Source of the DNA: an uncultured Lachnospiraceae bacterium
Lineage (GTDB): Bacteria; Bacillota; Clostridia; Lachnospirales; Lachnospiraceae
NCBI GenBank assembly: GCA_947599905.1
Contig: CANQFR010000006.1
Coordinates: forward strand, 1 to 39,110
Length of the DNA: 39,110 nucleotides
Direction: 5' to 3'
Positions 9,435 through 32,298 of this stretch are shown piece by piece (position 1 is the stretch's first letter; each line of letters begins with the position of its first letter). Made by a program: the position numbers and the translations under genes. The notes beneath the pieces were generated by a model. That model was not told the DNA's origin. It did no database searches and saw only the letters and a program-made list of their open reading frames with translations.

Positions 9435-11678
9435 TCACGCTTCCTCCATCAGCCGCCTGATCTCTTCCGGCATCGGATACGGTTCGCCGATCTTTTCCTT
9501 CAGAAGATCGCGCAACGCGAAATTCGACTTGCGCAGCGTCAGGTTCGGATTATAATACGGATCGCCGTCCCGCAGGATCTCCGGCCACTTCTTCGCGAAC
9601 TTCGCCACCTCGCGGTTAAAGCGTGCCACCTTTTCCGGCGTGTCCTCCAGCCCCCGCGACTTGGATTCATAGTGATACAGCTTCGCGTAGGGCGCGTAAA
9701 CCACCAGTTTCCCCAAAGAACGCACCTTCATGCAGTAGTCGATATCATTGAACGCCACCGCCAGTTCCTCCGAAAAACCGCCGGCAGCGTCAAAAACCGA
9801 CCGTTTGCTCATCATGCAGGCCGCCGTCACCGCGCTGTAATCCTGCGCGCACATCGCCCGGTGGAAATAGCTGTTCTCCGCCTCGTGGAGTCCGATGAAC
9901 GTATGTCCGGCGATGCCGCCGAAGCCTACCACAACGCCGGCGTGCTGGATCGTTCCGTCCTCATACAGAAGCCTGGCGCCTACGGCGCCCACATCCTCCC
10001 GCTGGCAGAAGCCCAGCATCTCCTCAATGAAATTCTCCGCAACCGGTTCAATATCATTGTTCATAAACAGCAGATAATCGCCGCGGGCATACTGCACGCC
10101 AAAGTTATTGATCGCGGAAAAATTGAACTCCCGCTCCCAGCGGACGACGCGCACCTGCGGGAATTCCTTCTGAAGCTTCTCATAGTAGCCGAAGGTTCCC
10201 GGGTCGCTGCTGTTGTTCTCCACAACCACGATCTCCAGATTCTTATAGGTACATTTCGTAAGTATCGTGCGCACGCACAGATCGAGGTCAGCCGTATGAT
10301 CTTTATTCGGTATGATCACCGACACCAGCGGCTCGCCGTGAATCGTAAACGTCGTATGGTAAATGCCATAGTCCACGCCTTTTTCAACCTTCTCCGCCGC
10401 AATGCCGGTACGCCGGTAATGATCCATGATGGCCCGCGAACCGGCCTCGAAAGCATAGAGCTTACTCTGCGGATTGCTGGCCGTGGAACCCTGATGGCAG
10501 CGCCAGTGGTACAGCACCTTCGGGATATGATAAATCCCGCGCGCCGCCTCCGTACACCGGAGAATCAGATCGTAATCCTGGGCGCCGTCATATTCCTTCC
10601 GGAATCCCCCTACGCGCTCAAGAAGCTCCCGCTTCACCGCGAACTGATGGCAGATATAATTCACACTGCACAGCAGATCCGGATTAAAATCCGGCTTAAA
10701 ATGCGGGTCGAAGAGCGCCCCGCCATCCATATCCATCTTGTCCTCGTCGGAATAGACCACATCGCAGTCCGGATGCTCCCGGAACGCCTTCGCAATCTCA
10801 TAGAGAGCGTGCTCCGGCATCGCGTCGTCCTGATCGGCCAGCACGACATAATCCCCGGACGCGAGGGCAATCGCCGCATTGGTATTGCCGGAAATACCTT
10901 CGTTCTTCTCAAGCGCCTGATAGCGGATCCGCTCATCACGGTCCGTATATTCCTTCACAAGCTTCGCCAAATCCTCTCCCCGGGGACTTCCGTCGGCGAT
11001 GCACAGTTCCCAGTTGGGATAGGTCTGGGCAAGAATGGAATCCAGCATGACCCGCAGAAATCCGGCAGGCGCCTTATAGACCGGCATAACCAGGGAAAGC
11101 TTCGGCCAGGCGGGCGCGTCCGCTGCCCGCTGACGCATCGCCGCCCCGGTTTCCGCCCGCTGACGCGCAAGCTCCTCCTCCGACGGCTTCGTCAGATCAT
11201 ACCATTCCGCGTACTCGTAGTCGTTGTCAATCCCCTGCAGCTTGTGCTTTGATTTGAGAAATAATGCTTTAAGCCCGTGTTTCTTCCCGAAATCCAGTGC
11301 CACACGGACTGTCTCCATGTTCATTAGATCATGAATCTTCTCCAGACGCTTATGAGCCACGCTGGAACGCTTCGCAATCAGTTCCTCATTGAATTTGATC
11401 CGGCGCACGCTGCCGTCGCAGCGGATCAGCAGCCAATAGCTTCGTCCCCGTTCATAGGGGAACTGGACGTCAAATCCAAAATCCCGGTCATAGATCTGTT
11501 TGTAATAGATCTGACTGACATCGTCCCGACGCGTGGGGACGTATTTGATCTTCACCCTGTCACGGTTTTCGTCCAGCACGGCAAACGCCGGTTTCGATTC
11601 CGGCGTTTTACCGATGACCCAGCCGTTCAGCTGAATCGAATTCTCGCGGATCCTGACCACATCGATCTTGTATTTCAT
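9435..11678 (-). CDS. Two-domain GT2 glycosyltransferase with N-terminal accessory domain
   Basis: A protein of 747 residues with three parts. Residues 1-100 form a beta-rich accessory domain (KIDVVRIRENSIQLNGWVIG...) often found at the front of large polysaccharide glycosyltransferases. The first GT-A domain starts near 193 (KLSLVMPVYKAP), with ADQDD at 281-285 and YSDEDK at about 309-314. The second starts near 451 (LVSVIIPNKDH), with VVENNSSD and FMNNDIEP at about 538-545. Two active sites suggest that it adds two sugars in turn, or polymerises. An upstream in-frame start at 11804 exists but would overlap the preceding gene, and its extra 42 residues are Arg/Thr-rich and unlike the family, so I start at MKYKID. 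Confidence 0.9.
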   Translation of the reverse strand: MKYKIDVVRIRENSIQLNGWVIGKTPESKPAFAVLDENRDRVKIKYVPTRRDDVSQIYYKQIYDRDFGFDVQFPYERGRSYWLLIRCDGSVRRIKFNEELIAKRSSVAHKRLEKIHDLMNMETVRVALDFGKKHGLKALFLKSKHKLQGIDNDYEYAEWYDLTKPSEEELARQRAETGAAMRQRAADAPAWPKLSLVMPVYKAPAGFLRVMLDSILAQTYPNWELCIADGSPRGEDLAKLVKEYTDRDERIRYQALEKNEGISGNTNAAIALASGDYVVLADQDDAMPEHALYEIAKAFREHPDCDVVYSDEDKMDMDGGALFDPHFKPDFNPDLLCSVNYICHQFAVKRELLERVGGFRKEYDGAQDYDLILRCTEAARGIYHIPKVLYHWRCHQGSTASNPQSKLYAFEAGSRAIMDHYRRTGIAAEKVEKGVDYGIYHTTFTIHGEPLVSVIIPNKDHTADLDLCVRTILTKCTYKNLEIVVVENNSSDPGTFGYYEKLQKEFPQVRVVRWEREFNFSAINNFGVQYARGDYLLFMNNDIEPVAENFIEEMLGFCQREDVGAVGARLLYEDGTIQHAGVVVGFGGIAGHTFIGLHEAENSYFHRAMCAQDYSAVTAACMMSKRSVFDAAGGFSEELAVAFNDIDYCMKVRSLGKLVVYAPYAKLYHYESKSRGLEDTPEKVARFNREVAKFAKKWPEILRDGDPYYNPNLTLRKSNFALRDLLKEKIGEPYPMPEEIRRLMEEA

Positions 11679-11736
11679 GCCTTCCCGTGTTCCCTTTTCT
11701 GTCTTATTTGCACTGTCCTTCGGATGCCTGCGGCCA

Positions 11737-12891
11737 TCAGTCCCAGTTGTCAGCTTCGTCCAGATTGATATTCTCGTCGTCGTCCGGCTCCGCCGCCGGC
11801 GCAACCGCCGTCACACCGACCGGCGCCATATCTGCGGCGGCTCTGCTTCCCTTGCCGCCCTTGCCTGATTTCCCCGCCTTGCCGGGCTTGTCCTCCCGGC
11901 CGCGGTTCTTGCCGTCCTTTTTCTTTTTCTTCTTCTCCCCGGCTTCGTCCCCCTGCCGCGGGAAATTCAACCGTTCCTCCTCGACCACGAGCGGCCGCTT
12001 CATGACCCGCTGGTTGATCGACAGGACATATTCGCCGATCATACCAATGAAAAAGATCTGCACCGAACCCAGAAACAGCATGCCGATCAGCATGGGCGCC
12101 ATGCCGGCCGGGAACCGGTCCCACCAGATCAGCTTCATGACCAGATAAATAACCGCCACCACAAAGCTGACTGCGCAGCTGAAACCGCCGATAAAGGTCG
12201 CCAGACGGATCCCTGCCTTCGTATAGGAGGTAACGCTTAACATTGCCGCGTCATAGAGCCTGTAGAAGTTATTGCTGGTCTTGCCGGCCCGCCGCTTCGG
12301 CTGCTCGTAGGGAATCTCCTTCCGCTTAAAGCCCAGCTCCGCGACGATCCCCCGCAGAAACGGCGTCGGATCATCCAGTTCCCTGAGCACCCGGATGAAT
12401 GATGCGTCATAGAGCCCGAAGCCGGTAAACTGCTCGATCTGCTCCACATCGGACAGTTTCTTGATTATCTTGTAATAACAGCCGCGAAGCCAATACATGA
12501 AGCGGTTCTCCCGGCTGGATTTCTTGATGCCGATGACGATCTTGCTGCCGTTCTCCCACTCATGCACATACCGCGGGATCAGTTCCACCGGATCCTGGAA
12601 ATCCGCCGCCATCAGAACCGTACAGTCGCCGCTGCTCTGCAGCATCGCGTAATACGGGGAATTGAACTGACCGAAGTTCCTGGCATTGAAGATACCGCGT
12701 ACATCCGGATCCTCCGCGCAGATTTCGCGGATGATCTCACGGGTTTTGTCCCGGGAATCATTATCTATGAAAATGATCTCGTACCGGTAAGCGGGAAGCT
12801 CTGCCGCAAACATCTCCCGCAGGGCGTCCGCCATGGCCCTTACATTCTCTTCCTCATTATAACAGGGTACTACGACGCTGACTGTCTTCAT
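11737..12891 (-). CDS. GtrB/DPM1-like polyprenyl-phosphate glycosyltransferase with charged C-terminal tail
   Basis: This 384-residue GT2 protein resembles enzymes that load a sugar onto polyprenyl phosphate. The N-terminal domain has VSVVVPCYNEEENV, IFIDNDSRDKT and the metal-binding AADFQDP (Asp97, Asp100). Two membrane helices follow (about 229-252 and 264-288), then SINQRVMKRPLVVEEE, the normal end of the family. Beyond residue 315 there is an unusual tail of about 65 residues: a Lys run, a Lys/Gly-rich section, an Ala/Pro section and an acidic end (DDDENINLDEADNWD). The first 35 bases overlap the end of the dehydrogenase gene, so translation is probably coupled. The product sugar-phosphate-lipid could feed a periplasmic-side glycosyltransferase, but none is visible here. 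Confidence 0.9.
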   Translation of the reverse strand: MKTVSVVVPCYNEEENVRAMADALREMFAAELPAYRYEIIFIDNDSRDKTREIIREICAEDPDVRGIFNARNFGQFNSPYYAMLQSSGDCTVLMAADFQDPVELIPRYVHEWENGSKIVIGIKKSSRENRFMYWLRGCYYKIIKKLSDVEQIEQFTGFGLYDASFIRVLRELDDPTPFLRGIVAELGFKRKEIPYEQPKRRAGKTSNNFYRLYDAAMLSVTSYTKAGIRLATFIGGFSCAVSFVVAVIYLVMKLIWWDRFPAGMAPMLIGMLFLGSVQIFFIGMIGEYVLSINQRVMKRPLVVEEERLNFPRQGDEAGEKKKKKKDGKNRGREDKPGKAGKSGKGGKGSRAAADMAPVGVTAVAPAAEPDDDENINLDEADNWD

Positions 12892-13960
12892 CCGTGCCTC
12901 TTTTCTCGCTGACCATCACCTTGATCAGATCCTGTGGTTTATCTTTCATCAGATACAATGCTTCCTCTATCCTGTCCATTCCGCTCAACCGGTGAGTGAT
13001 CAGCCGTTCCGGCGCGATCCGCCCGGCTGCCGCCATCGCCATCATCCGCTCGATGCGCACCCGGCCCCCTGCTGCCAGTTCCGTGTGTACGGTCTTGCCG
13101 GCCATTCCGCGGCCGCCCGAGAATTTGGGAAACGGCAGGCTGCCCGTACCGCCGTAATAATTCACATTGGAGACCGTACCGATCCCGTAACGCACCATAT
13201 CCACCGCCTGAGTAAACACCTCGTCGCCGCCTCCGCAGACGATGACGCTGTCCGCGCCCCGGCCGCCTGTCCGCGCAAGCACCTGCTCCACGATATCGCC
13301 GTTATGATAATCCAGCACCTCCGTGGCCCCGAACTCCAGTGCACGCTCCACACAGATCTGGCGGCTTCCGACCGCCAGAATCCGGGCCGCGCCCCGCAGC
13401 TTCGCCCCGGCCACCGCCATCAGACCGATGGGACCGATACCCAGCACCGCCACCGTATCGCCGAATTTGATATCCGCATACTCTGCGCCCGTGAAGCCCG
13501 TAGTCACCACATCCACGCACATCAGCGCCTGTTCAACCGTCACACCGTCCGGTATCTTCGCCAGCGTGGTATCCGCATCCGGAATCGCGAACTGCTCCGC
13601 AAACACGCCCGGGCGGCTCCGCCCCAGACGATGACCGGAGAACGGCTCCGACGCATGCTTATAATTGCCTTCCTGAATCCCAAGATCACGCCAGTCCGGC
13701 GTAATCGCAGGTACTGCCACGATCTCTCCGAGCGCAAAATCCCGCACCAGACTGCCGACTTCAAGAATCCTGCCCACACATTCATGTCCCAGGACCAGAT
13801 TCGGGGCCTTGCGCGAACCGCCGCCGAAAACCGTATGGACGTCGGAAGAACAGGGGGCTGCCGCGACCGGTTCCAGAATCGCCCCATAAGGCGTCAGTTC
13901 CGGCTCCGGCACATCCGCCCAGCCCGCGACTCCCGGTTCCTTCAGTACAAATGCTCTCAT
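12857..13960 (-). CDS. Zinc-dependent NADP(H) alcohol dehydrogenase, Thermoanaerobacter secondary-ADH type
   Basis: A medium-chain dehydrogenase of 367 residues that closely follows the Thermoanaerobacter/Clostridium beijerinckii secondary alcohol dehydrogenase pattern. The catalytic-zinc ligands Cys37, His59, Glu60 and Asp150 are all present (APCSSDVHTVF, LGHECVG, VDVVTTGF). The Rossmann motif is GIGPIG near 173-178. Gly197-Ser198-Arg199 and Tyr217 match the residues that read the NADP phosphate in that family. The four-cysteine structural zinc lobe of horse-liver-type ADHs is absent, as in this subfamily. The C-terminus past VMVSEK overlaps the next gene. The start overlaps the stop of the upstream fusion gene in ATGA. 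Among sugar genes it may oxidise or reduce a sugar or polyol rather than a solvent alcohol; that is inference. Confidence 0.9.
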   Translation of the reverse strand: MRAFVLKEPGVAGWADVPEPELTPYGAILEPVAAAPCSSDVHTVFGGGSRKAPNLVLGHECVGRILEVGSLVRDFALGEIVAVPAITPDWRDLGIQEGNYKHASEPFSGHRLGRSRPGVFAEQFAIPDADTTLAKIPDGVTVEQALMCVDVVTTGFTGAEYADIKFGDTVAVLGIGPIGLMAVAGAKLRGAARILAVGSRQICVERALEFGATEVLDYHNGDIVEQVLARTGGRGADSVIVCGGGDEVFTQAVDMVRYGIGTVSNVNYYGGTGSLPFPKFSGGRGMAGKTVHTELAAGGRVRIERMMAMAAAGRIAPERLITHRLSGMDRIEEALYLMKDKPQDLIKVMVSEKRGTDEDSQRRSTLL

Positions 13961-16140
13961 GAAAGTTCCTCCAGCTTCTCACTGCGCAGTGTCCATATCC
14001 CGATATCCTCGCCGTACCGTCTGCGGATCTCCCCGCGAATCTCCTCTGTATAACCGGGCGCCGCGATCAGGATCACATCCGGCGGATTGCCGGCCACCGA
14101 TTCCGGAGATACGATCGGCAGATGGGAAGCGGGGGCGAAGCGTCCCTGCTTAAACGGCGCGGAATCAATGATATAGGCTGCCTTCTCCCCCAGACAGGTG
14201 GTAGCCGCCAGCGTAAAGCCCTGATGGCTGGCTCCCCAAACCGCGAGGGTATGCCCCTGCGCCGCACAGTCCGCGGCCAGCGCAAGCAGCTGGCTGCAGA
14301 TTCGTTCATAGCTTTCCTTCCAGCCGGAAACATCCACGGGAATGAGCGGACGGGCCGCCGCATTACTGCCTGCCGCGGTCTGCTCCTTCAGGCCGCAGTC
14401 CCGCACCGTCGCTGCCGGATTGCAGGCCCCGACTTCGCCGGTCTTCTGCACGATCACCGCAAGCGTATCCCGGTTCACCACTTCCTCTTCAAGCACTGCA
14501 AACCCATTCCGCTCCAGAAGGTACCGCAGCGTCTCAAATGTATAGTAGGCGATATGATCCCGGATCAGTTCATAATAGCCGTCATATTGCAGTATATACT
14601 CCAGACTGGGCACCGTAATCAGCCCCATGCCGGAATCCGACAGATTATTCCGGATACAGGTGAGCATTACGCCCGGCTCAGGCTGGTGCTCCAGAAAATT
14701 AAAGGACAAAAACACATCATAAGGCCCCTTATCTCCCAGCACCGTATCCGCCGTCTCCGTAAAGCCGTCAAATACCTGAAGGCCGGATGCTCTTGCAGTA
14801 TCCGCCAGTTCCCTCCGCTGCTCGATACCGTAGGCGTCTACCGCAAACTCTCCAAGCATCTGCAGAAACTCCCCGCGTCCGCAGCCAACTTCCAGAAATT
14901 TCTTCCCTTCCAGATGATACCGTTGAATCAGATGACTGTACTGTTCCCTGCGAAGCCGGGCCATGGTAGTCGTATACCCGCCGGAACGGATCACCTCCCG
15001 ATAGTACGCCACCGGCTCACAATCCAGCTGAACCAGGCCGCAGGAGGGACACTGATACAGTCCGAGACCAATCCCATGGTCAGCGGCCAGATCCCCGGGC
15101 CCGGGAATATCCTGCGCGGAAGCCGGCATCCCCTCAAAACGCATCAGGGCCGCAGCCGGCAATTCGCGGCCGCATATGAGACACTGCGTTCTTTTCCGCT
15201 CTCCCTGCGCAAGCATTCTGCGAATTCCCTCCTCAAAACGGACACGCGGCTTCCAGCCGGTAACCGCCGTTATCTTATCAATGGAGGGCGCAAGACGGGC
15301 CGCTCCCTCCGCGTTCGGAGGAAGTTTCCCGTAGGCGCAGCTTCCGCGGCCGCCGCACAGCGCATGCATTTCCTCCACATAATCCCGCAGCGGTCTGGTC
15401 GCGCTACGGTCTCCCGCCAGATTATAGACGCCGCCTGCTGCCTTCTCACAGAAGGCCAGCGCCAGCAATCCCTCCACCAGATCATCTATATATAAATAAT
15501 TCCACGGCCGGGCGCAGTCACCGAGTTCCATGGTCCGTCCCGCCGCAAAGGTCTTCAGACAGGTATTCACCAGAGAACCCTCGTGATCCCCCGGTCCGTA
15601 GACGCTGAAAATCCGCGTATGGATATACACCATCTCCGATACGCCGCTGCGTCTGCGCTGCTCCGCAAGAGAAAACGCCTGACGGCCGAAAGCCAGCTTC
15701 GCCCTGCCGTACTCGGACACCGGGCTGCACACCGTCTCCTCCGTCATCTCTCCGTCGCAGATGCCATACTCCGCCTGGGATCCGCTGAAAATAAAGCGAC
15801 CGCAGCCAAGACGTTCGGCTGCGAGAAACGCCTTGACGGAATTCTCCGCGTTCCGCTGCTGAACAACAGCGTTCTTCCGGTTCTCGCTGCCGGATCCATC
15901 CCATCCGAAATGAAAGAAGAGCCCGCACGAACGGCCGATCACACTGTCGAGCCTGTCAAATCTTTCCATCTCCAGCTCCACCAGCCGCAGACCGGGATTG
16001 TCCCCCGCTTCTTTTTTCAGAAGTTCAAGATTCGAAGAGCCGGGACGAACCACGGCATAAACCTGATGACCCATTGCCAGCAGGCGTCCGACCAACGGAC
16101 GGGCCAGAAAACTGGTAGCCCCCGTGACGACAATCTCCAC
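13957..16140 (-). CDS. Fusion: NAD-dependent sugar epimerase/dehydratase (SDR) + C-methyltransferase
   Basis: Two enzymes in one chain of 727 residues. Residues 1-310 form an extended SDR: a nucleotide-binding start (VVTGATSFLAR), Ser119 in IFSGSQAEYG, catalytic Tyr144 and Lys148 (YGRAK), and YIDDLVEGLLAL. From about 318 comes a zinc-binding lead-in (CLICG and CPSCG pairs), then a SAM methyltransferase (KFLEVGCGRGEF) and a C-terminal domain with VWGASHQGF and YIIDSAPFKQGRF. That is the Methyltransf_13/23/14 order of sugar C-methyltransferases such as TylC3 and NovU. The start is a GTG with AAGGAGG eight bases upstream; an ATG 54 bases earlier has no such RBS. It is first in the glycan operon and probably makes a C-methylated, possibly deoxy, nucleotide sugar. 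Confidence 0.88.
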   Translation of the reverse strand: MEIVVTGATSFLARPLVGRLLAMGHQVYAVVRPGSSNLELLKKEAGDNPGLRLVELEMERFDRLDSVIGRSCGLFFHFGWDGSGSENRKNAVVQQRNAENSVKAFLAAERLGCGRFIFSGSQAEYGICDGEMTEETVCSPVSEYGRAKLAFGRQAFSLAEQRRRSGVSEMVYIHTRIFSVYGPGDHEGSLVNTCLKTFAAGRTMELGDCARPWNYLYIDDLVEGLLALAFCEKAAGGVYNLAGDRSATRPLRDYVEEMHALCGGRGSCAYGKLPPNAEGAARLAPSIDKITAVTGWKPRVRFEEGIRRMLAQGERKRTQCLICGRELPAAALMRFEGMPASAQDIPGPGDLAADHGIGLGLYQCPSCGLVQLDCEPVAYYREVIRSGGYTTTMARLRREQYSHLIQRYHLEGKKFLEVGCGRGEFLQMLGEFAVDAYGIEQRRELADTARASGLQVFDGFTETADTVLGDKGPYDVFLSFNFLEHQPEPGVMLTCIRNNLSDSGMGLITVPSLEYILQYDGYYELIRDHIAYYTFETLRYLLERNGFAVLEEEVVNRDTLAVIVQKTGEVGACNPAATVRDCGLKEQTAAGSNAAARPLIPVDVSGWKESYERICSQLLALAADCAAQGHTLAVWGASHQGFTLAATTCLGEKAAYIIDSAPFKQGRFAPASHLPIVSPESVAGNPPDVILIAAPGYTEEIRGEIRRRYGEDIGIWTLRSEKLEELS

Positions 16141-16189
16141 TCCCGCGTCCTCCTTTTTGCATTCCCTCCGGGATATCACTATCTGTTTT

Positions 16190-16308
16190 ATCATAACACA
16201 TTTTCTCCCTACTTAAAAGCCTTTTTCTACATCTGCCCATTTCTGCGCTTTTCTGCTCCGTTTTCCAGCAACCTTCACTTTTCAGGGGCCGCCCCGATGG
16301 TATATAAT
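16190..16308. promoter_or_regulatory. Divergent promoter region between the glycan cluster and a wall-repeat gene
   Basis: Leftward, TATGAT at 16190-16195 (minus strand) is the -10 of the glycan operon, with a weak -35. Rightward, TATAAT at 16303-16308 is the -10 of the wall-repeat gene, with TTTTCA at 16279-16284 as a possible -35 (18-bp spacer). Between them, TCTGC recurs at 16232, 16242 and 16252, a strict 10-bp period that puts three copies on one helix face. Confidence 0.55.
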
Positions 16309-18647: not shown

Positions 18648-19020
18648 CTGGTCCCCCTCCTTCCTGACTGTTTCCAATATAAGGCATTTTTCGTGATTTG
18701 AAAAGTTGATTCGTTCGCGCGTTTCGACACGGCTCCACGGAGCCGCTTTCAAAAACCGGAAAACGACCACAAAATATACCCTCCGATTCCTCCGCGAATA
18801 CTACTTCTGGATATGTTTTCGGCACCGAAAATGTCGGTTTTTGTCGAAATATTTTTGGTAAGATTTATGTCCGAAAATCGTAAGATTTTACCCGCTTTTA
18901 ACACCTAGGCAAACGCGTTTCCCTGTGCTATACTGAGAGCGAAGACAGAGAGTTGCGGACGGATCTGTGTATATCAGTTCCGCTCTGCGGGTATTGATTC
19001 AGGAAAGGAGGCTGTGTGGG
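18648..19020 (+). promoter_or_regulatory. Intergenic region with promoter and repeats for the 126-residue wall protein
   Basis: This AT-rich spacer holds an extended -10 (TGCTATACT, hexamer 18929-18934) with a 4/6 -35 (TAGGCA at 18906-18911, 17-bp spacer). Upstream, GTAAGATTT occurs at 18858-18866 and 18880-18888, again 22 bp apart. A TTTTCGG/CCGAAAA inverted repeat lies just left of them. The transcript would have a leader of about 80 bases. I see no gene in this stretch. Confidence 0.6.
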
Positions 19021-19401
19021 ATGAAGAAGATACGGTTCTGTGCAGCCGCGACTGCTTTTCTGCTGCTTCTTTCGACGTCCGTGCCTGTATACGCCGGCAC
19101 CTGGACGGCGCATGAGGATAAGACCTGGAGCTATGTGAATGATGAGGGCGAAAGCGTCAAAGGCTGGATCAAAGAAGACGGCAAGACCTACTACCTTGAC
19201 GAGAACGGCGTCCTTTTGACCGGCTGGATCGAGGATAGTGAGAAGACTTACTACCTCGACGAAGAGGGCGTTCTGAAGACCGGCTGGTTTAAGCTCAAGG
19301 GTTCCTGGTATTATTTCGACGAGAAAGGTGTCCTGGCGAAAGATCAGTGGATTGATAATTACTATGTAAACAAAGACGGGAAGATGAAAGGGGTCCGCTG
19401 A
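19021..19401 (+). CDS. Short secreted cell-wall-binding repeat protein
   Basis: A 126-residue exported protein. The signal peptide (MKKIRFCAAATAFLLLLS, cleavage expected after VYA near 25) is followed by wall repeats of about 20-21 residues: WSYVNDEGESVKGWI, TYYLDENGVLLTGWI, TYYLDEEGVLKTGWF and WYYFDEKGVL. It has nothing else, so it is a bare wall-binding module without an effector domain. The DNA of adjacent repeats is still similar (63-base units from about 19153 to 19341), suggesting recent duplication. The start is fixed by AAAGGAGG ten bases upstream; an ATG at 18967 is in frame but has no RBS and would spoil the signal peptide. A terminator overlaps the stop codon. Confidence 0.85.
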   Translation: MKKIRFCAAATAFLLLLSTSVPVYAGTWTAHEDKTWSYVNDEGESVKGWIKEDGKTYYLDENGVLLTGWIEDSEKTYYLDEEGVLKTGWFKLKGSWYYFDEKGVLAKDQWIDNYYVNKDGKMKGVR

Positions 19402-19416
19402 AGCGGCCCCCTTTTC
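19387..19416 (+). terminator. Terminator overlapping the stop codon of the short wall protein
   Basis: The stem AAAGGGGTCCGC/GCGGCCCCCTTT has one mismatch and a TGAA loop, and is followed by TTTTCT. The loop contains the TGA stop codon. It separates this gene from the convergent greA. Confidence 0.8.
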
Positions 19417-19919
19417 TAGTAACTTCGGATCTTATCATCTTTGTCGTCCGTGCTTTTGTCGATCGAACGGATTACCACATAGTAGCCGGCCGTCTCATTG
19501 ACCCGGACATACACACGCTCACCGGCCTTATGCCCCAGCACGGCGCGCCCCAGCGGGGATTCCGTACTGATCAGGCCGTGCAGGGAGCTGCCGCGGATCG
19601 ACGTAACCAGACGGTAGGTTTCCACCTCGTCGTCGTCCTCCATATAGAGTTCGACCGTATTGTTCAGTCCCACCTCGTCGGCCTTCGACTCGTCAGAGAT
19701 GATCTCGGCCGTACGCAGAAGCTTTTCCAGATAGCGGATGCGGCTCTCGTTCTGGTTTTTGTCCTTCTTTGCCGCGTGATATTCGAAATTCTCGCTTAAA
19801 TCCCCATGAGCGCGCGCTTCCTTCACCGCCTCCAGCGCCTCCTTGCGAACCACAAGCTTCCGGTATTCGATCTCCTCCTCAATCTTTTTCACGTCACTTT
19901 TTGTCAGCTTCTCTGCCAT
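19416..19919 (-). CDS. greA: GreA/GreB family transcription elongation factor
   Basis: A 167-residue Gre factor, which enters the RNA polymerase secondary channel and stimulates cleavage of backtracked RNA. The N-terminal coiled coil carries the acidic-tip signature GDLSENFEYHAAK (about 41-53). The C-terminal FKBP-like domain has ESPLGRAVLGHKAGE. The ATG has AAGGAGA five bases upstream; a TTG seven codons earlier is less likely. The first 26 bases overlap the end of the GTPase-nuclease gene, so translation is coupled. The C-terminus has an extra Asp/Lys-rich end. This may be a second Gre factor rather than the main GreA, because its context is not the usual one. Confidence 0.9.
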   Translation of the reverse strand: MAEKLTKSDVKKIEEEIEYRKLVVRKEALEAVKEARAHGDLSENFEYHAAKKDKNQNESRIRYLEKLLRTAEIISDESKADEVGLNNTVELYMEDDDEVETYRLVTSIRGSSLHGLISTESPLGRAVLGHKAGERVYVRVNETAGYYVVIRSIDKSTDDKDDKIRSY

Positions 19920-22833
19920 GATAATCTCCTTCTTTTCCAAGTCTTACCTCTTCCAGGTATTCCCGCAGCTCTCCGTCCGCGTGATTTAACAGGTAATTCC
20001 CGCCGCGGACCGACGGCCGGGAAAGTCCCGCCAGATGCTCCGCGCGAATCTGTTCATTGACATACACGACCGCTTCCCGCAGATCCTGCGCCGATAAAAG
20101 GCGGCAGCCCGCGCCGCGGATAATCAGCTGCTCCAACCCGTCGGAAGTCGCCACCGTGACCGTATGGCTCTTTCCCATCTGATGGGCCAGCTTCTCAATA
20201 TATGCGTCGGCGGTCTCGGCCTCTTTCGTGTAGACAACATGGATATTGTGGTAGTTGATGGCCTGTCCGAGGCCCCCTTCCACTTTATATGCGTCAAACA
20301 CGAGAATCAGAATACATCCCGTGTATCCCTGATAATTACACAGAATATCCATCAGCCGCTGCCGGGCTCCGTCGATCGTCGTCTCCGCCAGTTCGTGAAG
20401 CTCCGGCCAGGCGTAGATAATATTGTAACCGTCCACCAGCAGGTATTCTTCCTCCGGCGTCTCTTCCGATTTCGGCGTCCGCTTCCGGTCGAAGCTGATG
20501 TGCCGCGGTGAATGTTCCGACGGAAGACGGGTTTTCCGCTCCCCATAGGTCCGTGTGAAAATGGCCTCCAGTTCCCTGTCTTCGGCTCCCCACGCGGCGC
20601 TTCGCCCTGCATGACCGCCGGACTGACCGGAAGCTGCCGCATGACCGCCGGACTGACCGGAGGCCTGTTCCCTTCTTGCCGTCAGCATGAGCGGACTCTC
20701 CAGATGCATATATCTCCCGACATCCTTCCAGTCTACCGCGAAACCCGCGCCATGGGCGCAGAATACGGAGCCGCAGGGATTCTCCAGATCCGCCTGCGGG
20801 TCGTAAGCAGCCGCCGCAATCACTTCCGGCGCATTGTGGCACGGCTCGTAACCTTTCAGGCTGCAGCTGAGCCGGCCGCGCCCCTTCGAGTATGCAGCCA
20901 CTTCCATCTGATAATTTCCCATCTCGGAAACCGGCGCATCACCGGTGATGACCGCCATTTCTCCGTCCACCTCGGGTCCAGCGAAAGCCGCGTTCATCCG
21001 TTCCAGATCCGAAAGCGCCCGCCCGGCAGCTTCCATCGGCACCTCCAGCCGAAAGTGGTAATACGGCTCCAGAAGCAGGTAATTTCCCGCTGTCAGTGCC
21101 TGCATCAGCCCGTGACGCACCGCCCGATAGGTGGACTGGCGGAAATCCCCGCCCTCCGTGTGCTTCAGATGCGCCCGGCCCGTCAGCAGAGTAATCTTCA
21201 TATCCGTAATCTGCGCGCCGGTCAGCACGCCGACATGGCGTTTCTCCTCCAGATGCGTCAGGATCAGCCGCTGCCAGTTCAGATCCAGTACATCGGTGCT
21301 GCAGGCCGTGCCGAAGCTCAGGCCGCTTCCACGGGGCGCGGGTTCCAGAAGCAGATGCACCTCCGCATAATGCCGCAGCGGCTCGTAATGCCCCACGCCC
21401 TCGACAGGCGCAGTGACCGTTTCCTTGTATACAATATGGCCGGTACCGAATTCCACATCCGTACCGAATCGCTCCCGGATCAGATTCTTCAGTATCTCAA
21501 TCTGCACCTGTCCCATAACCTGGGCCTGAATCTCACCCAGCGCCTCATTCCATGCGATGCGCAGCATCGGCTCTTCTTCCTCCAGCTGGCGCAGCTTCGC
21601 AAGCATCCCGTGGACATCGCTGCCCGGAGGAAGAATCACCTGATAGGTGAGTACCGGTTCCAGCAGCGGCATCTCCTGCCCCCGTGCCGCTTCTGCCCCG
21701 AGCGCCTGACCGGCATATGTAGCAATGGGACCGGTCACCGCACAGATCACCCCGGGGCCGGCTTCTCCCGCCAGCTCATACTTCGCGCCCGAATAGATCC
21801 GGATCTGATTGACTTTTTCATTCTCCGCCGGCGGCCTGCCGCCTGCCGCGGAAAATGGCGCGGACCTTACCCCAGACGCTGCCGCGGACGCTGCCTCCGG
21901 GAGCAAATCCTTCACCTTCAGGGTACCGCTTGTGATCTTCATATGTGTCAGCCGGTTTCCGGCATCGTCACGTGATATTTTGAAGACGCGCGCCCCGAAC
22001 GGCGCAGCCGCACCGCCTGCATTCATGCCGTCCTGTGCATCCAGCCGACCGGCCGCGCTGCCGAACGCTTCAATCCCGTGCAGCAGTTCTTCCACGCCCT
22101 GAAGCTTCAACGCCGAACCGAAATAGCATGGGAAGACCTTCCGGGCCGCAACCAGCTGCCGGATGTCCTCCGCGCGCACCGTGCCGCTTTCGAGATAACT
22201 TTCCAGAACCGCCTCATCGCACATCGCGAGTTCTTCCATGATTTCGGCCGACTGGGATGCCATCCCGGCAACACTGTCCGCGCTTCCTACCGCCCTGCCT
22301 CCGGCAACATTTCCATCTTCGGATACGGTCAGGACATCAAAAGGGATACAGTTCGCGTCCAGCCGCTTCTGCAGTCCGGCAAGCAGCGCCTGCCGGTCTG
22401 TCCCCGGCTGATCCATTTTATTGACAAACAGAAACACCGGAACTCGATAGCGTCTCAGCAGCCGCCACAAAGTTTCCGTATGTCCCTGAACGCCGTCCGC
22501 GCCGCTGATCACCAGGACGGCGCAATCCAGCACCTGAAGTGTCCTCTCCATCTCCGCGGAGAAATCCACATGCCCCGGCGTGTCCAGAAGCGTCACACGG
22601 ATATCCCCCAGATCGAATACCGCCTGTTTGGAAAAAATCGTAATGCCCCTGGCACGCTCCATTTCATAAGTGTCCAGAAAGGCATCCCGGTTATCCACAC
22701 GGCCCAGCCTGCGGATAGTCCCGGTCTCATAGAGAATCCCTTCCGACAACGTGGTCTTTCCCGCATCTACATGGGCCAGCAGACCCACGCACAGGTGTTT
22801 CGCGGGTCTCCTTCCTTCTGCCTGTCCGCCCAT
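19894..22833 (-). CDS. EF-G/TetM-like translational GTPase fused to a YacP/Rae1-like NYN nuclease domain
   Basis: A protein of 979 residues. The G domain shows AHVDAGKTT (20-28), RGITI (62-66), DTPGH (84-88) and NKMD (138-141). EF-G/TetM-type domains II-V follow to about 710. A low-complexity Gly/Ser/Ala linker contains two copies of GQSGGHA. From 796 an NYN/PIN-like domain begins (YLLVDGYNIIYAWPEL), with acidic residues Asp801, Asp847, Glu873/Asp876 and Asp898 (VDGYN, VFDAY, ETADAY, ATSDGLEQ). That is the YacP/Rae1 signature. Free-standing Bacillus Rae1 cleaves mRNA in the ribosomal A site; TetM-like proteins bind the same region. The fusion suggests a ribosome-targeted endonuclease. Tetracycline resistance cannot be inferred. 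The RBS is GAGGAGG seven bases before ATG; the gene lies 13 bases after tldE. Confidence 0.9.
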   Translation of the reverse strand: MGGQAEGRRPAKHLCVGLLAHVDAGKTTLSEGILYETGTIRRLGRVDNRDAFLDTYEMERARGITIFSKQAVFDLGDIRVTLLDTPGHVDFSAEMERTLQVLDCAVLVISGADGVQGHTETLWRLLRRYRVPVFLFVNKMDQPGTDRQALLAGLQKRLDANCIPFDVLTVSEDGNVAGGRAVGSADSVAGMASQSAEIMEELAMCDEAVLESYLESGTVRAEDIRQLVAARKVFPCYFGSALKLQGVEELLHGIEAFGSAAGRLDAQDGMNAGGAAAPFGARVFKISRDDAGNRLTHMKITSGTLKVKDLLPEAASAAASGVRSAPFSAAGGRPPAENEKVNQIRIYSGAKYELAGEAGPGVICAVTGPIATYAGQALGAEAARGQEMPLLEPVLTYQVILPPGSDVHGMLAKLRQLEEEEPMLRIAWNEALGEIQAQVMGQVQIEILKNLIRERFGTDVEFGTGHIVYKETVTAPVEGVGHYEPLRHYAEVHLLLEPAPRGSGLSFGTACSTDVLDLNWQRLILTHLEEKRHVGVLTGAQITDMKITLLTGRAHLKHTEGGDFRQSTYRAVRHGLMQALTAGNYLLLEPYYHFRLEVPMEAAGRALSDLERMNAAFAGPEVDGEMAVITGDAPVSEMGNYQMEVAAYSKGRGRLSCSLKGYEPCHNAPEVIAAAAYDPQADLENPCGSVFCAHGAGFAVDWKDVGRYMHLESPLMLTARREQASGQSGGHAAASGQSGGHAGRSAAWGAEDRELEAIFTRTYGERKTRLPSEHSPRHISFDRKRTPKSEETPEEEYLLVDGYNIIYAWPELHELAETTIDGARQRLMDILCNYQGYTGCILILVFDAYKVEGGLGQAINYHNIHVVYTKEAETADAYIEKLAHQMGKSHTVTVATSDGLEQLIIRGAGCRLLSAQDLREAVVYVNEQIRAEHLAGLSRPSVRGGNYLLNHADGELREYLEEVRLGKEGDYHGREADKK
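20611..20661 (-). repeat. 30-bp tandem duplication in the GTPase-NYN linker
   Basis: A 21-base sequence beginning ATGACCGCCGGACTG (plus strand) occurs at 20611-20631 and again at 20641-20661. It encodes the doubled GQSGGHA linker at about residues 724-741. A 30-bp unit keeps the frame, so copy number could vary without breaking the protein. Confidence 0.85.
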
Positions 22834-22846
22834 TCAGACGCCTCCT

Positions 22847-24184
22847 CTATTTGCCGCTGACCGCGATCTCCTTCACCAGAAGGCTGGGCGAACCGAAGCC
22901 CCGCATACTGTTAAACTTCATATCATTTCCGACCGCCGTCACCTTCTTAAGCAGTTCGAAGAAATTGCCCGCAATGGTAAATGATTTCACCGGCCGGTCT
23001 TTTCTTCCGTTCCGGATCAGGAAACCGCTGCTCTGCAGCGAGAAATCACCCGATACAAAGCTGGCGCCCGCGTGAAGGCCCTGAACCCCGGTAATCAGGA
23101 TGCCGTCCTTTGCTATCGCGCAAATCTCTTCCGCAGTTACCGTCCCCGGCCGGAGATAGAAATTGGTCGGCTGCACGGAAATCGGCGAACTGACCGACAT
23201 TCTGGATGCATTGCCCGTCGATTCCGTTCCGGCCCTGGCGGCCGAAGCAAGATCGTACAGCAGCGTTTTCAGCGTCCCGTTTTCAATCACCGCCTTGCAC
23301 CGGGCGGGCATCCCCTCTCCGTCAAACGGAATCTGCCGGAAACTCTCCTCATAAAACGGATTGTCCATAATAGTCACACAATCCGACGCTATCTTCGTCC
23401 CTTCCTTCCCTTTCAGCAGGGAAAGGCCGTTGACCGCATTCTCCCCGGAAAACGCCGGCGAGAACGCCGCCAGCAGACTGGTCATTGCTTCCGGGGCGAT
23501 CACGGCCGGACAGACGCCGCTGTCGGGAGCCGATGCGCCCAGAGAGTCCAGCGCCTTCTGCACCGTCTCCCGGGCCAGCTCCTCCAGATCGATCTGATCC
23601 ACGCTTCCGCAGCGAAAGCCGTACTCGCTGCTTACGTCCTCCCCATCCTTCGCGACCACCTGCGCAAACACCGCGCCTGCATGAAGTTCCCCTGTCAGAT
23701 GCACCCCATTGGAATTATCCAGACAGATTTCCGAATGACTGGTCCAGGTTCCGGCCTCCGAATTACCGGTGACTCTCCGATCCGCGTCACGGCAAAGCTT
23801 AAGCTCCCGCTTTGCAAGCTCCGCCATCTGCGCCGTTGACACCTCGCTGACCATGCGCGGCTCCGCCTTCTCGTAAACCAGACCGCCCTTACAGAAAAGA
23901 ACCGGTTCGTCTTTCTCGATGCAGGAGGCATTCTCCATGGTATGGGCTACCAGCCGCTCCGCCTCATCCTCCGTAAACAGGCTCGTCGAGGCGCTTCCGA
24001 TATGCCCCCGGTAAACGCACCGAAAGCAGGCGGCCGCGTCCTCCGAACTGGAGAACCCCTTCACCTCTCCCTCAAACGCCCCGATATCCGACGACCGGGA
24101 CCGCATATAATACAGCTCATATTCCGTCAGGCCGCAGGCACAGGCCCGCTCAAACACCTTATCCTTAAATTCCTGATAATTCAT
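22847..24184 (-). CDS. tldE: TldE/PmbA-type subunit of the TldD/TldE metalloprotease
   Basis: This protein (445 residues) is of the PmbA/TldD superfamily without the HExxxH zinc motif, so it is the TldE (PmbA) partner. TldD/TldE heterodimers degrade small unfolded peptides and mature some peptide antibiotics in the cytoplasm. The family end is visible (GVQGLHAGASFVSGDFSLQS and GNFFELLKKVTAVGNDM). The start MNYQEF is set by AAAGGAGAGG about eight bases upstream; a longer reading to 24289 would run back into tldD. It begins 14 bases after the tldD stop and is followed after 13 bases by the GTPase-nuclease gene, so the four genes form one operon. Confidence 0.9.
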   Translation of the reverse strand: MNYQEFKDKVFERACACGLTEYELYYMRSRSSDIGAFEGEVKGFSSSEDAAACFRCVYRGHIGSASTSLFTEDEAERLVAHTMENASCIEKDEPVLFCKGGLVYEKAEPRMVSEVSTAQMAELAKRELKLCRDADRRVTGNSEAGTWTSHSEICLDNSNGVHLTGELHAGAVFAQVVAKDGEDVSSEYGFRCGSVDQIDLEELARETVQKALDSLGASAPDSGVCPAVIAPEAMTSLLAAFSPAFSGENAVNGLSLLKGKEGTKIASDCVTIMDNPFYEESFRQIPFDGEGMPARCKAVIENGTLKTLLYDLASAARAGTESTGNASRMSVSSPISVQPTNFYLRPGTVTAEEICAIAKDGILITGVQGLHAGASFVSGDFSLQSSGFLIRNGRKDRPVKSFTIAGNFFELLKKVTAVGNDMKFNSMRGFGSPSLLVKEIAVSGK

Positions 24185-24198
24185 TTCGGACCTCTCCT

Positions 24199-25596
24199 TT
24201 ACTGATTTCTTCCGCCTACCGTAATATCCGACACGCGGATCAGCGGCTGGCCGACTGTCGTGGGAATTCTTCCGCTGGAAGCGCCGCACATACCGGCCGC
24301 CAGCTGCAGATCCTTCCCGACCATATCGATCTTCCGGATCACATCCGAACCTTTGCCCACCAGACTGGCGCCGCGGACCGGCTCGCAGATCTTGCCGCCG
24401 CGGATCATATAGGCCTCGGCAACCCCGAAGTTGAATTCCCCGGTGATCGGATTGACGGACCCGCCGCCCATTTTCTTCGCATACAGGCCGTATTCGATGG
24501 AGGAAATGATATCCTCGTCGCTGTCCGTTCCCGGCGCGATATAAGTGTTTGTCATCCGGGATGTGGGTTCATAGTCATATCCCTGTCTGCGCGAATTGCC
24601 GGTCGCCGGCAGGCCCATCCGGCGGGCGTTGAATTTATCGATCATATAGGACTTCAGGATCCCGTTTTCGATCAGGACATTCTTTCTGGCCGGCGTCCCC
24701 TCATCGTCGATGTTCATGGACCCCCATTCGTTGGGAATTGTACCATCGTCGACCGCGGTTACTTTCGGGTTCGCCACCTGCTGTCCCAGCTTACCGGCGA
24801 ATTCCGACTGACCGTAGGCCACGGATGCCGCCTCCAGCGAATGACCGCAGGCTTCATGGAAAATCACGCCGCCGAACCCATTGCCGATCGCCACGGTCAT
24901 CTTCCCCGCCGGGCAGTAACCGGCATTCAGCATCGTCACTGCCTGCGTCGCTGCCTCCACTCCTACAGCCCGCGGTTCGATCATTTCACAGAGTTCAAAG
25001 CCGACGCGGTGTCCGTGGGAACAGGAACCGCTCTGATTCTCACCGTTTAGGCTTGCCGTGGCGGAAACAGTCAGGCGGCTGCGGATCTGACGGTCGGAAG
25101 CGAGAAGCCCCTCGCTGTTGGCAACCTGAATCCGGTGATCCACATCGAGGAAGACGCCGCTGACCTGAGAAATGGTTTCATGCACAGTCCCCGCCGCCTC
25201 ACAGGCCTCTTTCAGGACATCAATCTTATCCCTGTTTGCCGTATCAGCCGGCACAATCCGTACCGGATGAATATCTCCGAAAATGCGTTCCCGCAGATGA
25301 ATGGCCGCCGGCTGCACACTTTCGGCCAGCGCGCCGGCCACACGGTCCGCACAGGCAAGCAGCCCCTTCCCGGTAAGATCGGAAGTGCTGGCAAAGACGC
25401 TTCTTAAGCCCATATAAATACGAATGCCGGCTCCGGAAATCAGCTGGTCGCTGATCGAATAAACGCTTCCGTTCATCAAATGAATGGAACGGCTCCCCGT
25501 ATGTTCCAGATACAGCTCCGCATAATCGGCGCCCGTAGTCATAGCCCGTTCCAGAATCTGCTCCATCAGGGAACGGGGAATGGAATTGGGTGACAT
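24199..25596 (-). CDS. tldD: TldD-type metallopeptidase catalytic subunit
   Basis: The catalytic partner of TldE, 465 residues long. The zinc-binding HExxxH motif is clear: His247, Glu248 and His252 in GVIFHEACGHSLEA. The C-terminal family blocks NPITGEFNFGVAEAYMIRGG and GKGSDVIRKIDMVG are present. Peptide substrates enter a chamber formed with TldE; the natural substrate here is unknown. The start MSPNSI has AAAGGAGG eight bases upstream, which rules out the longer in-frame reading to 25632. It is the first gene of the operon, with a promoter at 25679-25707. I see no RiPP precursor gene next to it, so general peptide turnover is at least as likely as natural-product maturation. Confidence 0.93.
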   Translation of the reverse strand: MSPNSIPRSLMEQILERAMTTGADYAELYLEHTGSRSIHLMNGSVYSISDQLISGAGIRIYMGLRSVFASTSDLTGKGLLACADRVAGALAESVQPAAIHLRERIFGDIHPVRIVPADTANRDKIDVLKEACEAAGTVHETISQVSGVFLDVDHRIQVANSEGLLASDRQIRSRLTVSATASLNGENQSGSCSHGHRVGFELCEMIEPRAVGVEAATQAVTMLNAGYCPAGKMTVAIGNGFGGVIFHEACGHSLEAASVAYGQSEFAGKLGQQVANPKVTAVDDGTIPNEWGSMNIDDEGTPARKNVLIENGILKSYMIDKFNARRMGLPATGNSRRQGYDYEPTSRMTNTYIAPGTDSDEDIISSIEYGLYAKKMGGGSVNPITGEFNFGVAEAYMIRGGKICEPVRGASLVGKGSDVIRKIDMVGKDLQLAAGMCGASSGRIPTTVGQPLIRVSDITVGGRNQ

Positions 25597-25678
25597 AGAC
25601 GAAACCTCCTTTTCAAATAACAACACCTCCACGAATGCTGCATTCCGGAGGCATTATTCTGTCTGACTGTTCAGTCTC

Positions 25679-31029: not shown

Positions 31030-32298
31030 CTACTGAATCCAGGCCCCGTCGGCTCCCACGCGGAAATACGTATCAACCGTGGTGTTCGTCGCCATATAAC
31101 CGTAACCCGGATAGAAATAGTAGTATTTATTACCGATTGCCGTCCAGCCTTCCGCCATCTCCCCGTTGCTGTTCAGAAAATAGGTCTTACCGTTCTTCGT
31201 CAGCCAGCCGGTACGCATCATACCCTCCACGCCGTCGGCGACCGTGTTCAGGTAGTACCACTTGTTGCCGGCCAGGATCCAGCCGGTCAGCATCGTGCCG
31301 TTGGGCTGCATATAGTACCAGCCGCCCTTCCACTGCTGCCATCCGGTCAGCATCCGTCCATTCCCGTCAAACAGGTACCAGATCCCGTTCAGCTGCAGCC
31401 ATCCGTTCGTCTGATACTGCCCGGTCGGATACCGGAAATACCAGTCGCTGCCGGAGCTGACCCAGCCAACCTGCGTCGTACTGGCGGCAATACCATCCAT
31501 CGCCACCTGACCGCTCCCGTCGGATACATGATCTTCGTCAATATAAAAATCGTCAGATTCCGTCCACTCACTCTTTGTACCGTACTGCTTCTGCTGCGTC
31601 GTATGAGGCACCGTGCGGACGCGGAAGAAATAGCTGCCCTTTTTCGTCATATACGGATAAAAATTGCAGGAAGTTCCGTAATAATCCTCCAGTTTGTATA
31701 CAAGGGTGCTGCCACGGTACAGATACACATCGTAGTATCCGGACGTCGTCGCTGCGTAATAATCGTCATATCTGCTCATCTCCGTGTTCCACTCGGCCCG
31801 TCCCAGACCGTTGCTGCGCCACTGAGCGTCGGAGGGCGCCGCGTAGGCCCCCTTGACCGGTACGGAAACGACGACTGCCAGCATCCCGTCTGCTTCTCTG
31901 CGGGCACTGACGAAGGTTCCGCCCTTGACCGTGATACTTCCGGAACCATAGGAACCGCGGAAAGCATAACCTGACTCCGGTTCAAGATAAACCCGCATCT
32001 TCGGCAACTCCCCAACCGCGATATACCGGTCTTCGGAAGTCACCCATTCTGCAGAACGTACCTCGTATTTCGTTGAGTTCGTAGCGGCGTAGGCCTTCTT
32101 GTCCGGCTGAGCTTCGGTAGAACCAACAATACAGTCAATATATTCCGGCAGCGTATCTCCAGGGTCGATCGTCAATCCAACTCGTATCCCAACACTGGTG
32201 ATCGCCACATCTTTCGCCCAGGCCGTCTCGCAGACCCCAAACGCCATCAGGCAAGCCAGAACAGCAGCCAGGACTCTGCCGTATTTTCGTCCTCTCAT
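31030..32298 (-). CDS. Secreted protein with C-terminal cell-wall-binding repeats
   Basis: An exported protein of 422 residues. The signal peptide covers about 1-28 (core VLAAVLACLMAFGV, cleavage expected after AWA). The middle (about 29-265) is beta-rich, with a stretch reminiscent of a fibronectin-type fold (YDVYLYRGSTLVYKLED, SYFFRVRTVPHT), and matches no enzyme I know. The last 150 residues are choline-binding-type repeats (WYFRYPTGQYQTNGWL, WYLFDGNGRMLTGWQ, TYFLNSNGEMAEGW). The RBS is GGGAGG eight bases before ATG. With its own promoter and terminator, it forms a self-contained unit placed between rplQ and ecfA1, two genes that are usually adjacent in related bacteria. Wall attachment is firm inference; the ligand and role are unknown. 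Confidence 0.85.
   Translation of the reverse strand: MRGRKYGRVLAAVLACLMAFGVCETAWAKDVAITSVGIRVGLTIDPGDTLPEYIDCIVGSTEAQPDKKAYAATNSTKYEVRSAEWVTSEDRYIAVGELPKMRVYLEPESGYAFRGSYGSGSITVKGGTFVSARREADGMLAVVVSVPVKGAYAAPSDAQWRSNGLGRAEWNTEMSRYDDYYAATTSGYYDVYLYRGSTLVYKLEDYYGTSCNFYPYMTKKGSYFFRVRTVPHTTQQKQYGTKSEWTESDDFYIDEDHVSDGSGQVAMDGIAASTTQVGWVSSGSDWYFRYPTGQYQTNGWLQLNGIWYLFDGNGRMLTGWQQWKGGWYYMQPNGTMLTGWILAGNKWYYLNTVADGVEGMMRTGWLTKNGKTYFLNSNGEMAEGWTAIGNKYYYFYPGYGYMATNTTVDTYFRVGADGAWIQ

Follow-up and report, generated by a model that had tools for sequence, protein, structure and literature searches.

The 39,110-nt stretch of DNA analyzed here (the window), from an uncultured Lachnospiraceae bacterium, encodes a 979-residue protein in which an EF-G-type GTPase is joined through a linker to a NYN_YacP nuclease domain. 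In most fused genomes examined, rae1, the gene for the separate nuclease of this type, is no longer found in its operon and persists as a domain at the C terminus of the GTPase. The explanation that best fits the findings as a whole, and that we consider probable, is that a chromosomal translational GTPase of a clade of its own carries the Rae1-type endoribonuclease of the cell as a tethered C-terminal domain. Similar weight is given to the functional counterpart of this proposal, a GTPase-delivered, ribosome-dependent mRNA endonuclease that replaced stand-alone Rae1, for which we infer ribosome binding, GTP coupling and cleavage. Many Clostridia join in one protein a ribosome-type GTPase and an RNA-cutting enzyme that is a protein of its own in other bacteria.

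The open reading frame begins with an ATG codon just 3' of an AGGAGG sequence, and its product is a translational GTPase of the EF-G superfamily by its G motifs, domains III, IV and V, and fold. The G motifs lie where a preliminary description of the window had placed them (G1, AHVDAGKTT, residues 20-28; G2, RGITI, 62-66; G3, DTPGH, 84-88; G4, NKMD, 138-141), and His88 of G3 is of the catalytic type. Residues K26/T27, D84/H88 and K139/D141 are present in 40/40 fused proteins and in 9/9 separate GTPases. The EF-G domain order given in the same description was recovered by Pfam, with GTP_EFTU (1.1e-49), EFG_III (8.6e-7), EFG_IV (6.8e-15) and EFG_C (2e-17) all over the cut-off and EF-G_D2 slightly below it (23.5 versus 27). 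An AlphaFold2 model built on 40 aligned fused proteins (mean pLDDT 83, pTM 0.68) predicts both the GTPase body and the NYN domain well, and all 50 matches listed in a fold search with this model were EF-G-type proteins. The linker is predicted with pLDDT below 50 at residues 729-752 and 764-791, which flank a short helix; because the motif of this helix, ELEAIFTRTYG, was found in just 20 of the 40 fused proteins, it is not a family-wide feature.

The nuclease part was matched by NYN_YacP at 1.8e-46 (158.6 bits versus a cut-off of 24.6), and a PDB search with this part gave as its only significant relatives the YacP entries 5mq8 and 5mq9 (1.4e-25; next match, E 1), which we take to be B. subtilis Rae1. 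Residues D7, D53, D81 and D104 of the PDB sequence align with D801, D847, D876 and D898 of the fused protein, and by its profile score and these aligned, conserved catalytic acids the domain can be classed as Rae1/YacP. All five acidic residues named in the preliminary description are present, although one of them, E873, is not invariant among homologs, being kept in 34/40 fused and 6/12 separate NYN proteins. Loss of catalytic residues across homologs, which would have spoken against a nuclease, was looked for; D801, D847 and D876 were retained in 40/40 fused proteins and D898 in 38/38, the remaining two rows being truncated at the ends of contigs. The NYN tree is poorly resolved, with unsettled bootstrap values and many long branches; rows L216 and L220, the latter read in an apparently incorrect frame, are not used.

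Assembly error as the source of the fusion was ruled out because the gene was found in 17 of the 21 same-genus genomes searched, two of which encode proteins 80% identical to the 979-residue protein over the full length; the four genomes that lack it are 82, 93, 65 and 79% complete. The closest named relative, from an uncultured Lachnospiraceae bacterium (L119), shares 72% identity in the GTPase and 90% in the NYN domain. When the gene was compared with those of six close relatives, dN/dS was 0.059-0.091 in the NYN domain, 0.092-0.148 in the GTPase part and 0.028-0.063 in domain IV, figures that are rough because dS (0.7-1.5) is near saturation. The NYN value was the lower of the two parts in 6/6 pairs, while the linker is fast-changing. 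These ratios indicate that the NYN domain is under purifying selection.

The GTPase relative to Tet proteins and EF-G

The fusion architecture is not new; it was already described in 2015, filed under Tet: the available part of that report (PMC4342817) assigns a YacP-like NYN domain to the Tet proteins of ten Clostridiales species and suggests a possible RNase-based resistance mechanism (Atkinson 2015). An EF-G-type GTPase with a C-terminal YacP-like NYN domain in Clostridiales is common to both accounts, and these are almost certainly the same proteins. According to the 2015 account, as far as it was available, ten species hold Tet proteins that acquired an RNase, whereas the present analysis points to a family-wide protein, a clade apart from Tet and replacement of Rae1. 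As far as the literature was searched, three findings are new, namely that the GTPase forms a separate clade, that the fusion is spread across the whole family, and that it has replaced rae1 at the operon of the latter; no further report of the fusion was found in one open-access library, and the central Rae1 papers lay outside that search.

That the protein is a tetracycline ribosomal protection protein whose accessory RNase supplies a second resistance mechanism, as suggested in 2015, appears very unlikely. The NCBIfam model closest to the fused protein is indeed tet_protect, the fusion was filed as Tet in PMC4342817 in the part available, and an unfused relative is annotated as TetM-family. 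However, the tet_protect score of 415 bits is below the cut-off of 775, as are those of three separate GTPase orthologs (370-408), whereas a tet(M) control scored 876. The EF-G model TIGR00484 likewise gave 281.5 bits, below its cut-off of 659.4. In a tree of 60 rows, comprising 41 of the GTPase family of the fusion and 19 Tet, Tet-like and EF-G proteins, the latter 19 were joined by a branch of length 1.01 with 100/100 support and all 41 family rows fell outside. Domain IV of the fused protein has HLKHTEGGDF (family form, HxKHTxGGDF) where all four named Tet rows, Tet(M), (O), (W) and (36), have SPVSTPADF, a tip that acts in tetracycline release according to the available part of PMC4342817; the EF-G tip loops GGRGQYGH and GSYHxVDS were looked for by alignment and are not present in the fused protein. 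Because the GTPase falls outside the Tet and EF-G clade, has neither type of domain IV tip and scores below the tetracycline cut-off, it was concluded from sequence comparisons that it forms an EF-G-superfamily clade of its own and is not a Tet protein, and tetracycline protection was rejected on the same three grounds. Furthermore, two same-genus genomes (G300, G311) hold a Tet(M/O/W)-clade gene in addition to the fusion, which, unlike a resistance gene, is near-universal in the family.

The earlier label "EF-G/TetM-like" therefore holds for the EF-G-type domains and fails for the parts that displace tetracycline, as judged by tip and tree. Domain order, GTPase motifs and approximately 27-29% identity are shared with Tet(M) and Tet(O), from which the fusion differs in its domain IV tip, post-domain V extension, phylogeny, NCBIfam score relative to the cut-off, linker and NYN domain. 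The tip motifs GH(F/Y)EPLRH and KHT..GD were found in 39-40 of 40 fused and 9/9 separate rows and are altered in Neobacillus, Intestinibacter and L. salivarius. Fused and separate GTPases both have the extension, which none of the compared Tet and EF-G rows showed; in this region of the fused set Cys665, Cys692 and His694 are near-invariant and form a possible metal site. A parallel is offered by Bacteroides EF-G2 (8dmf; 7uvp, deposited as TetQ), a chromosomal EF-G paralogue with a Tet label in one entry, which appears in the fold search of the fused protein but shares only 20% identity and has no NYN domain; on the EF-G2 NCBIfam model (cut-off 1000) the fused protein scored 156 bits and three relatives 128-189.

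Within the clade, most unfused Bacillota orthologs group together (99/78), and the unfused GTPases of Bifidobacterium, Collinsella and L. salivarius fall among fused ones in a 21-row group (98/99), a placement that suggests transfer and NYN loss. The claim that tetracycline annotation hides this protein is correct for an unfused relative, labelled "TetM/TetW/TetO/TetS family" by NCBI, and incorrect for one fused protein, labelled "translation factor GTPase family protein"; because these labels differ, the family is only partly hidden as tetracycline resistance. Caution is nevertheless advised in resistance surveys against counting the clade as tet genes.

Three further cases were noted. Two proteins (L103 and L135, from G054 and Paenibacillus jilunlii) form a Tet-like subgroup beside the Tet clade with the distinct domain IV tip HTHPLDF. 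A highly divergent GTPase-NYN fusion (L053:5174-7960, in G149), with 25% GTPase identity, no longer has the domain IV tip typical of the family, and its placement in the tree is unsure (branch 4.14). A plasmid of Ligilactobacillus salivarius carries an unfused GTPase gene (L108:4983-6917) that bears a TetM-family label and adjoins rpsN (S14).

Distribution of the fusion and the fate of rae1

How widespread the fusion is, and whether its hosts also keep a separate rae1, had been raised in the preliminary description; surveys found the fusion widespread and the separate gene mostly lost. The family sample comprised 298 genomes (297 at least 90% complete and the genome of the window, at 88.7%), of which 270 had a NYN_YacP match and 28 had none. 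A fused-length frame, defined as at least 800 residues with NYN_YacP, was found in 249 (248 others and the genome of the window), a count that rests on frame length, with GTPase presence checked on 40 fetched loci; all 40 matched the GTPase part, 39 of them at 36-77% identity and L053 as given above. Among the 21 shorter family frames, 11 are clear separate NYN genes, the frames for GTPase and NYN overlap in G033, G119 has the gene in two frames, and eight are unassigned, several lying at contig ends (G054, G078, G081, G115, G145, G190, G192, G213). A separate GTPase ortholog of 541-706 residues, located elsewhere, was found in nine of the ten genomes tested with a clearly separate NYN (G022, the eleventh, was left out), with 39-51% identity where scored over most of the length; none was found in G005. 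None of 20 NYN-less family genomes tested (of the 28) had an ortholog, their best matches being of EF-G or Tet type at 33% or less.

In the class survey, a GTPase ortholog was present in 139 of 343 genomes at a cut of 700 bits, apart from the partial G468; the next full match (G442, 568 bits) was excluded as a non-ortholog. The gene was of fused length in 113, all with a NYN match, and four split or broken fusions (G545, G484, G359, G468) were set aside by their positions. The unfused genomes comprised 16 with separate GTPase and NYN, six with the GTPase only, 84 with NYN only and 120 with neither, so that the two co-occur without fusion at an odds ratio of 3.8 (Fisher p 0.006, with related genomes treated as independent). 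Separate genes for both were also found in Collinsella, Neobacillus cucumis, Intestinibacter bartlettii and one Clostridiales bacterium; for Ligilactobacillus salivarius the search covered a plasmid record.

Where rae1 is a separate gene, it immediately follows trmH in 8/12 loci, usually as cysE-cysS-mrnC-trmH-rae1(-sigH), and B. subtilis Rae1, which resembles the present domain in its NYN_YacP fold by sequence and its four aligned acids, is a free protein of approximately 170 residues encoded in a cysS-mrnC-trmH-rae1-sigH operon. When the mrnC neighborhood was fetched from 20 fused genomes, rae1 was absent at the trmH site in 19; the other, G591, has it between trmH and sigH in addition to the fused gene and so shows an in-between state of the replacement. 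Because rae1 is absent there in the 19 and present in 8/12 separate loci, it was concluded that the fusion took the place of rae1. In nine fused family genomes in which trmH and sigH were both found, the gap between them, at 14-60 nt, is too short to hold rae1; in six fused genomes from two further families the gap is 178-625 nt with no rae1 match inside, and in four of the 19 sigH was not found. The genome of the window (2.83 Mb) has cysS-mrnC-trmH without rae1 (L195), and its single NYN_YacP match is the fused one.

Two other roles were tried and rejected. A PADLOC search of the fused protein for anti-phage defense returned 0 families at E 0.01, and there was no sign of mobility that would mark the gene as mobile-element cargo, matches with at least 80% cover being found in 2/1260 plasmid and 2/113 phage records, both of the latter unannotated fecal contigs. 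Fused genes occur in a 518-kb Monoglobus record called a plasmid (L107) and in a phage-labelled fecal contig marked UNVERIFIED (L113), records that may be mislabelled chromosomal DNA.

Proposed action on the ribosome

Factors of the EF-G superfamily place domain IV in the ribosomal A site. In the mechanism envisaged here, the GTP form of the GTPase would bind ribosomes in a particular state, with a vacant or stalled A site, which the family-specific domain IV tip would probe. GTP hydrolysis would then withdraw the GTPase, and the NYN domain, on a flexible tether of approximately 80 residues that should let it reach the A site after domain IV withdraws, would enter the freed site. There it would cut the mRNA, as proposed for the lone Rae1 of B. 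subtilis, and leave the ribosome for rescue. As the preliminary description had stated, stand-alone Rae1 is a translation-dependent endoribonuclease that cuts mRNA in the A site, according to the available parts of three reports (PMC6613710; PMC12320835; PMC10100781). A bolder version, which we hold tentatively and at somewhat less than even confidence, is that of a dedicated bacterial no-go-decay factor, in which an EF-G-superfamily GTPase would sense stalled ribosomes and hand the A site to its tethered endonuclease upon GTP hydrolysis. Were this so, mRNA cleavage on the ribosome would be GTP-gated in a whole Clostridia family, and the unfused GTPase beside a separate Rae1 would be an unrecognized Rae1 partner. 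More generally, knowledge of the enzymes by which mRNA is cut on stalled ribosomes of bacteria is incomplete, as stated in the available part of PMC12320835; if the proposed mechanism is true, this task falls in a large bacterial family to a GTP-coupled machine rather than to a free nuclease, and an unassigned translational GTPase clade partly annotated as tetracycline resistance gains a testable job.

Several observations weigh against a tethered nuclease that has replaced Rae1. Rae1 and a domain IV of EF-G type would be rivals for one site and so would have to act in turn. Two NYN matches were found in four class genomes (G433, G486, G519, G591), and replacement is therefore incomplete in places; in the first three the second match is not at the trmH site. 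Among the 249 fused family genomes, the single extra NYN match is a fragment at a contig edge in G030. A single origin of the fusion is weakly supported in the GTPase tree (71/92), and the class association between GTPase and NYN is modest and uncorrected for kinship. Finally, the GTPase occurs without NYN in the 6/343 class genomes and in Bifidobacterium avesanii, and genomes with Rae1 but no such GTPase are common (84/343, with B. subtilis among the NYN controls). Because each occurs alone, neither needs the other, and their coupling is probably an advantage rather than a need.

The existence of genomes with either part alone also bears on a less probable reading, one of two independent functions in one chain, in which an EF-G-like factor (e.g., a translocation aid, recycling factor or ribosome assembly factor) and Rae1 were joined for co-expression. 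The linker is long and predicted to be disordered, and NYN-less orthologs keep largely the same domain IV tip, as such a reading would expect. However, the fused form is stable across the family with rae1 gone from its old operon, each part belongs to a family of ribosome factors, and a single chain is unnecessary for mere co-expression. A further reading, highly improbable in our view, holds that the substrate of the NYN domain is not mRNA but rRNA or tRNA, in ribosome maturation or quality control, and that the GTPase is an assembly or checkpoint factor. It would suit the position of the separate rae1 with mrnC and trmH, a neighborhood of rRNA maturation, and the first proposal made for NYN domains, maturation of rRNA or tRNA, as quoted in the available part of PMC4342817. 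Against it, the studied relative, Rae1, cuts mRNA in the A site, as cited above, and we know of no rRNA substrate of Rae1. A GTP-driven, ribosome-targeted endonuclease, as put forward in the preliminary description, remains the preferred account.

Features of the window

Coordinates of the fused gene, its parts and its immediate neighbors are given in Table 1. Because the start codon of greA lies within the 3' end of the fused gene, translational coupling of these genes is probable, and the PmbA/TldD gene on the other side is likely in the same operon. The greA gene follows the fused gene in the genus only, and across 40 fused loci no conserved neighbor was found beyond a few pairs.

Table 1. 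Positions in the window of the fused gene, its domains and its adjacent genes.
Feature	Coordinates	Strand	Basis
Fused gene, 979 aa: EF-G-type GTPase, linker and NYN_YacP nuclease	19894..22833	-	ORF, motifs, Pfam
G domain, residues 12-254, including G1-G4	22072..22800	-	Pfam, motifs
Domain IV, residues 466-579; family-specific tip GHYEPLRHYAEV (481-492) and HLKHTEGGDFR (555-565)	21097..21438	-	
Extension past domain V, residues 670-713 (...NP.GSVFCAHGAGF...YMH)	20695..20826	-	Alignment
Linker, residues 714-795, low confidence	20449..20694	-	AlphaFold2 pLDDT
Short linker helix, residues 750-763 (ELEAIFTRTYG motif)	20545..20586	-	AlphaFold2, motif scan
NYN_YacP (Rae1-type) nuclease domain, residues 798-935; acids D801, D847, D876, D898	20029..20442	-	
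greA; ATG (19919) inside 3' end of fused gene (stop 19894-19896)	19416..19919	-	
PmbA/TldD metallopeptidase gene; its end is 13 bases from the start of the fused gene	22847..24289	-	

Two tandem PmbA/TldD metallopeptidase genes lie directly upstream of the fused gene (22847-25632, reverse strand). Elsewhere in the window, a SecY gene is found at the end of the stretch (37783-39099, reverse strand) and glycosyltransferase and epimerase/methyltransferase genes lie further left (9435-16194, reverse strand), a candidate accessory Sec and glycan locus, and choline-binding-type cell wall repeats occur in two proteins (18967-19401, forward strand; 31030-32298, reverse strand).

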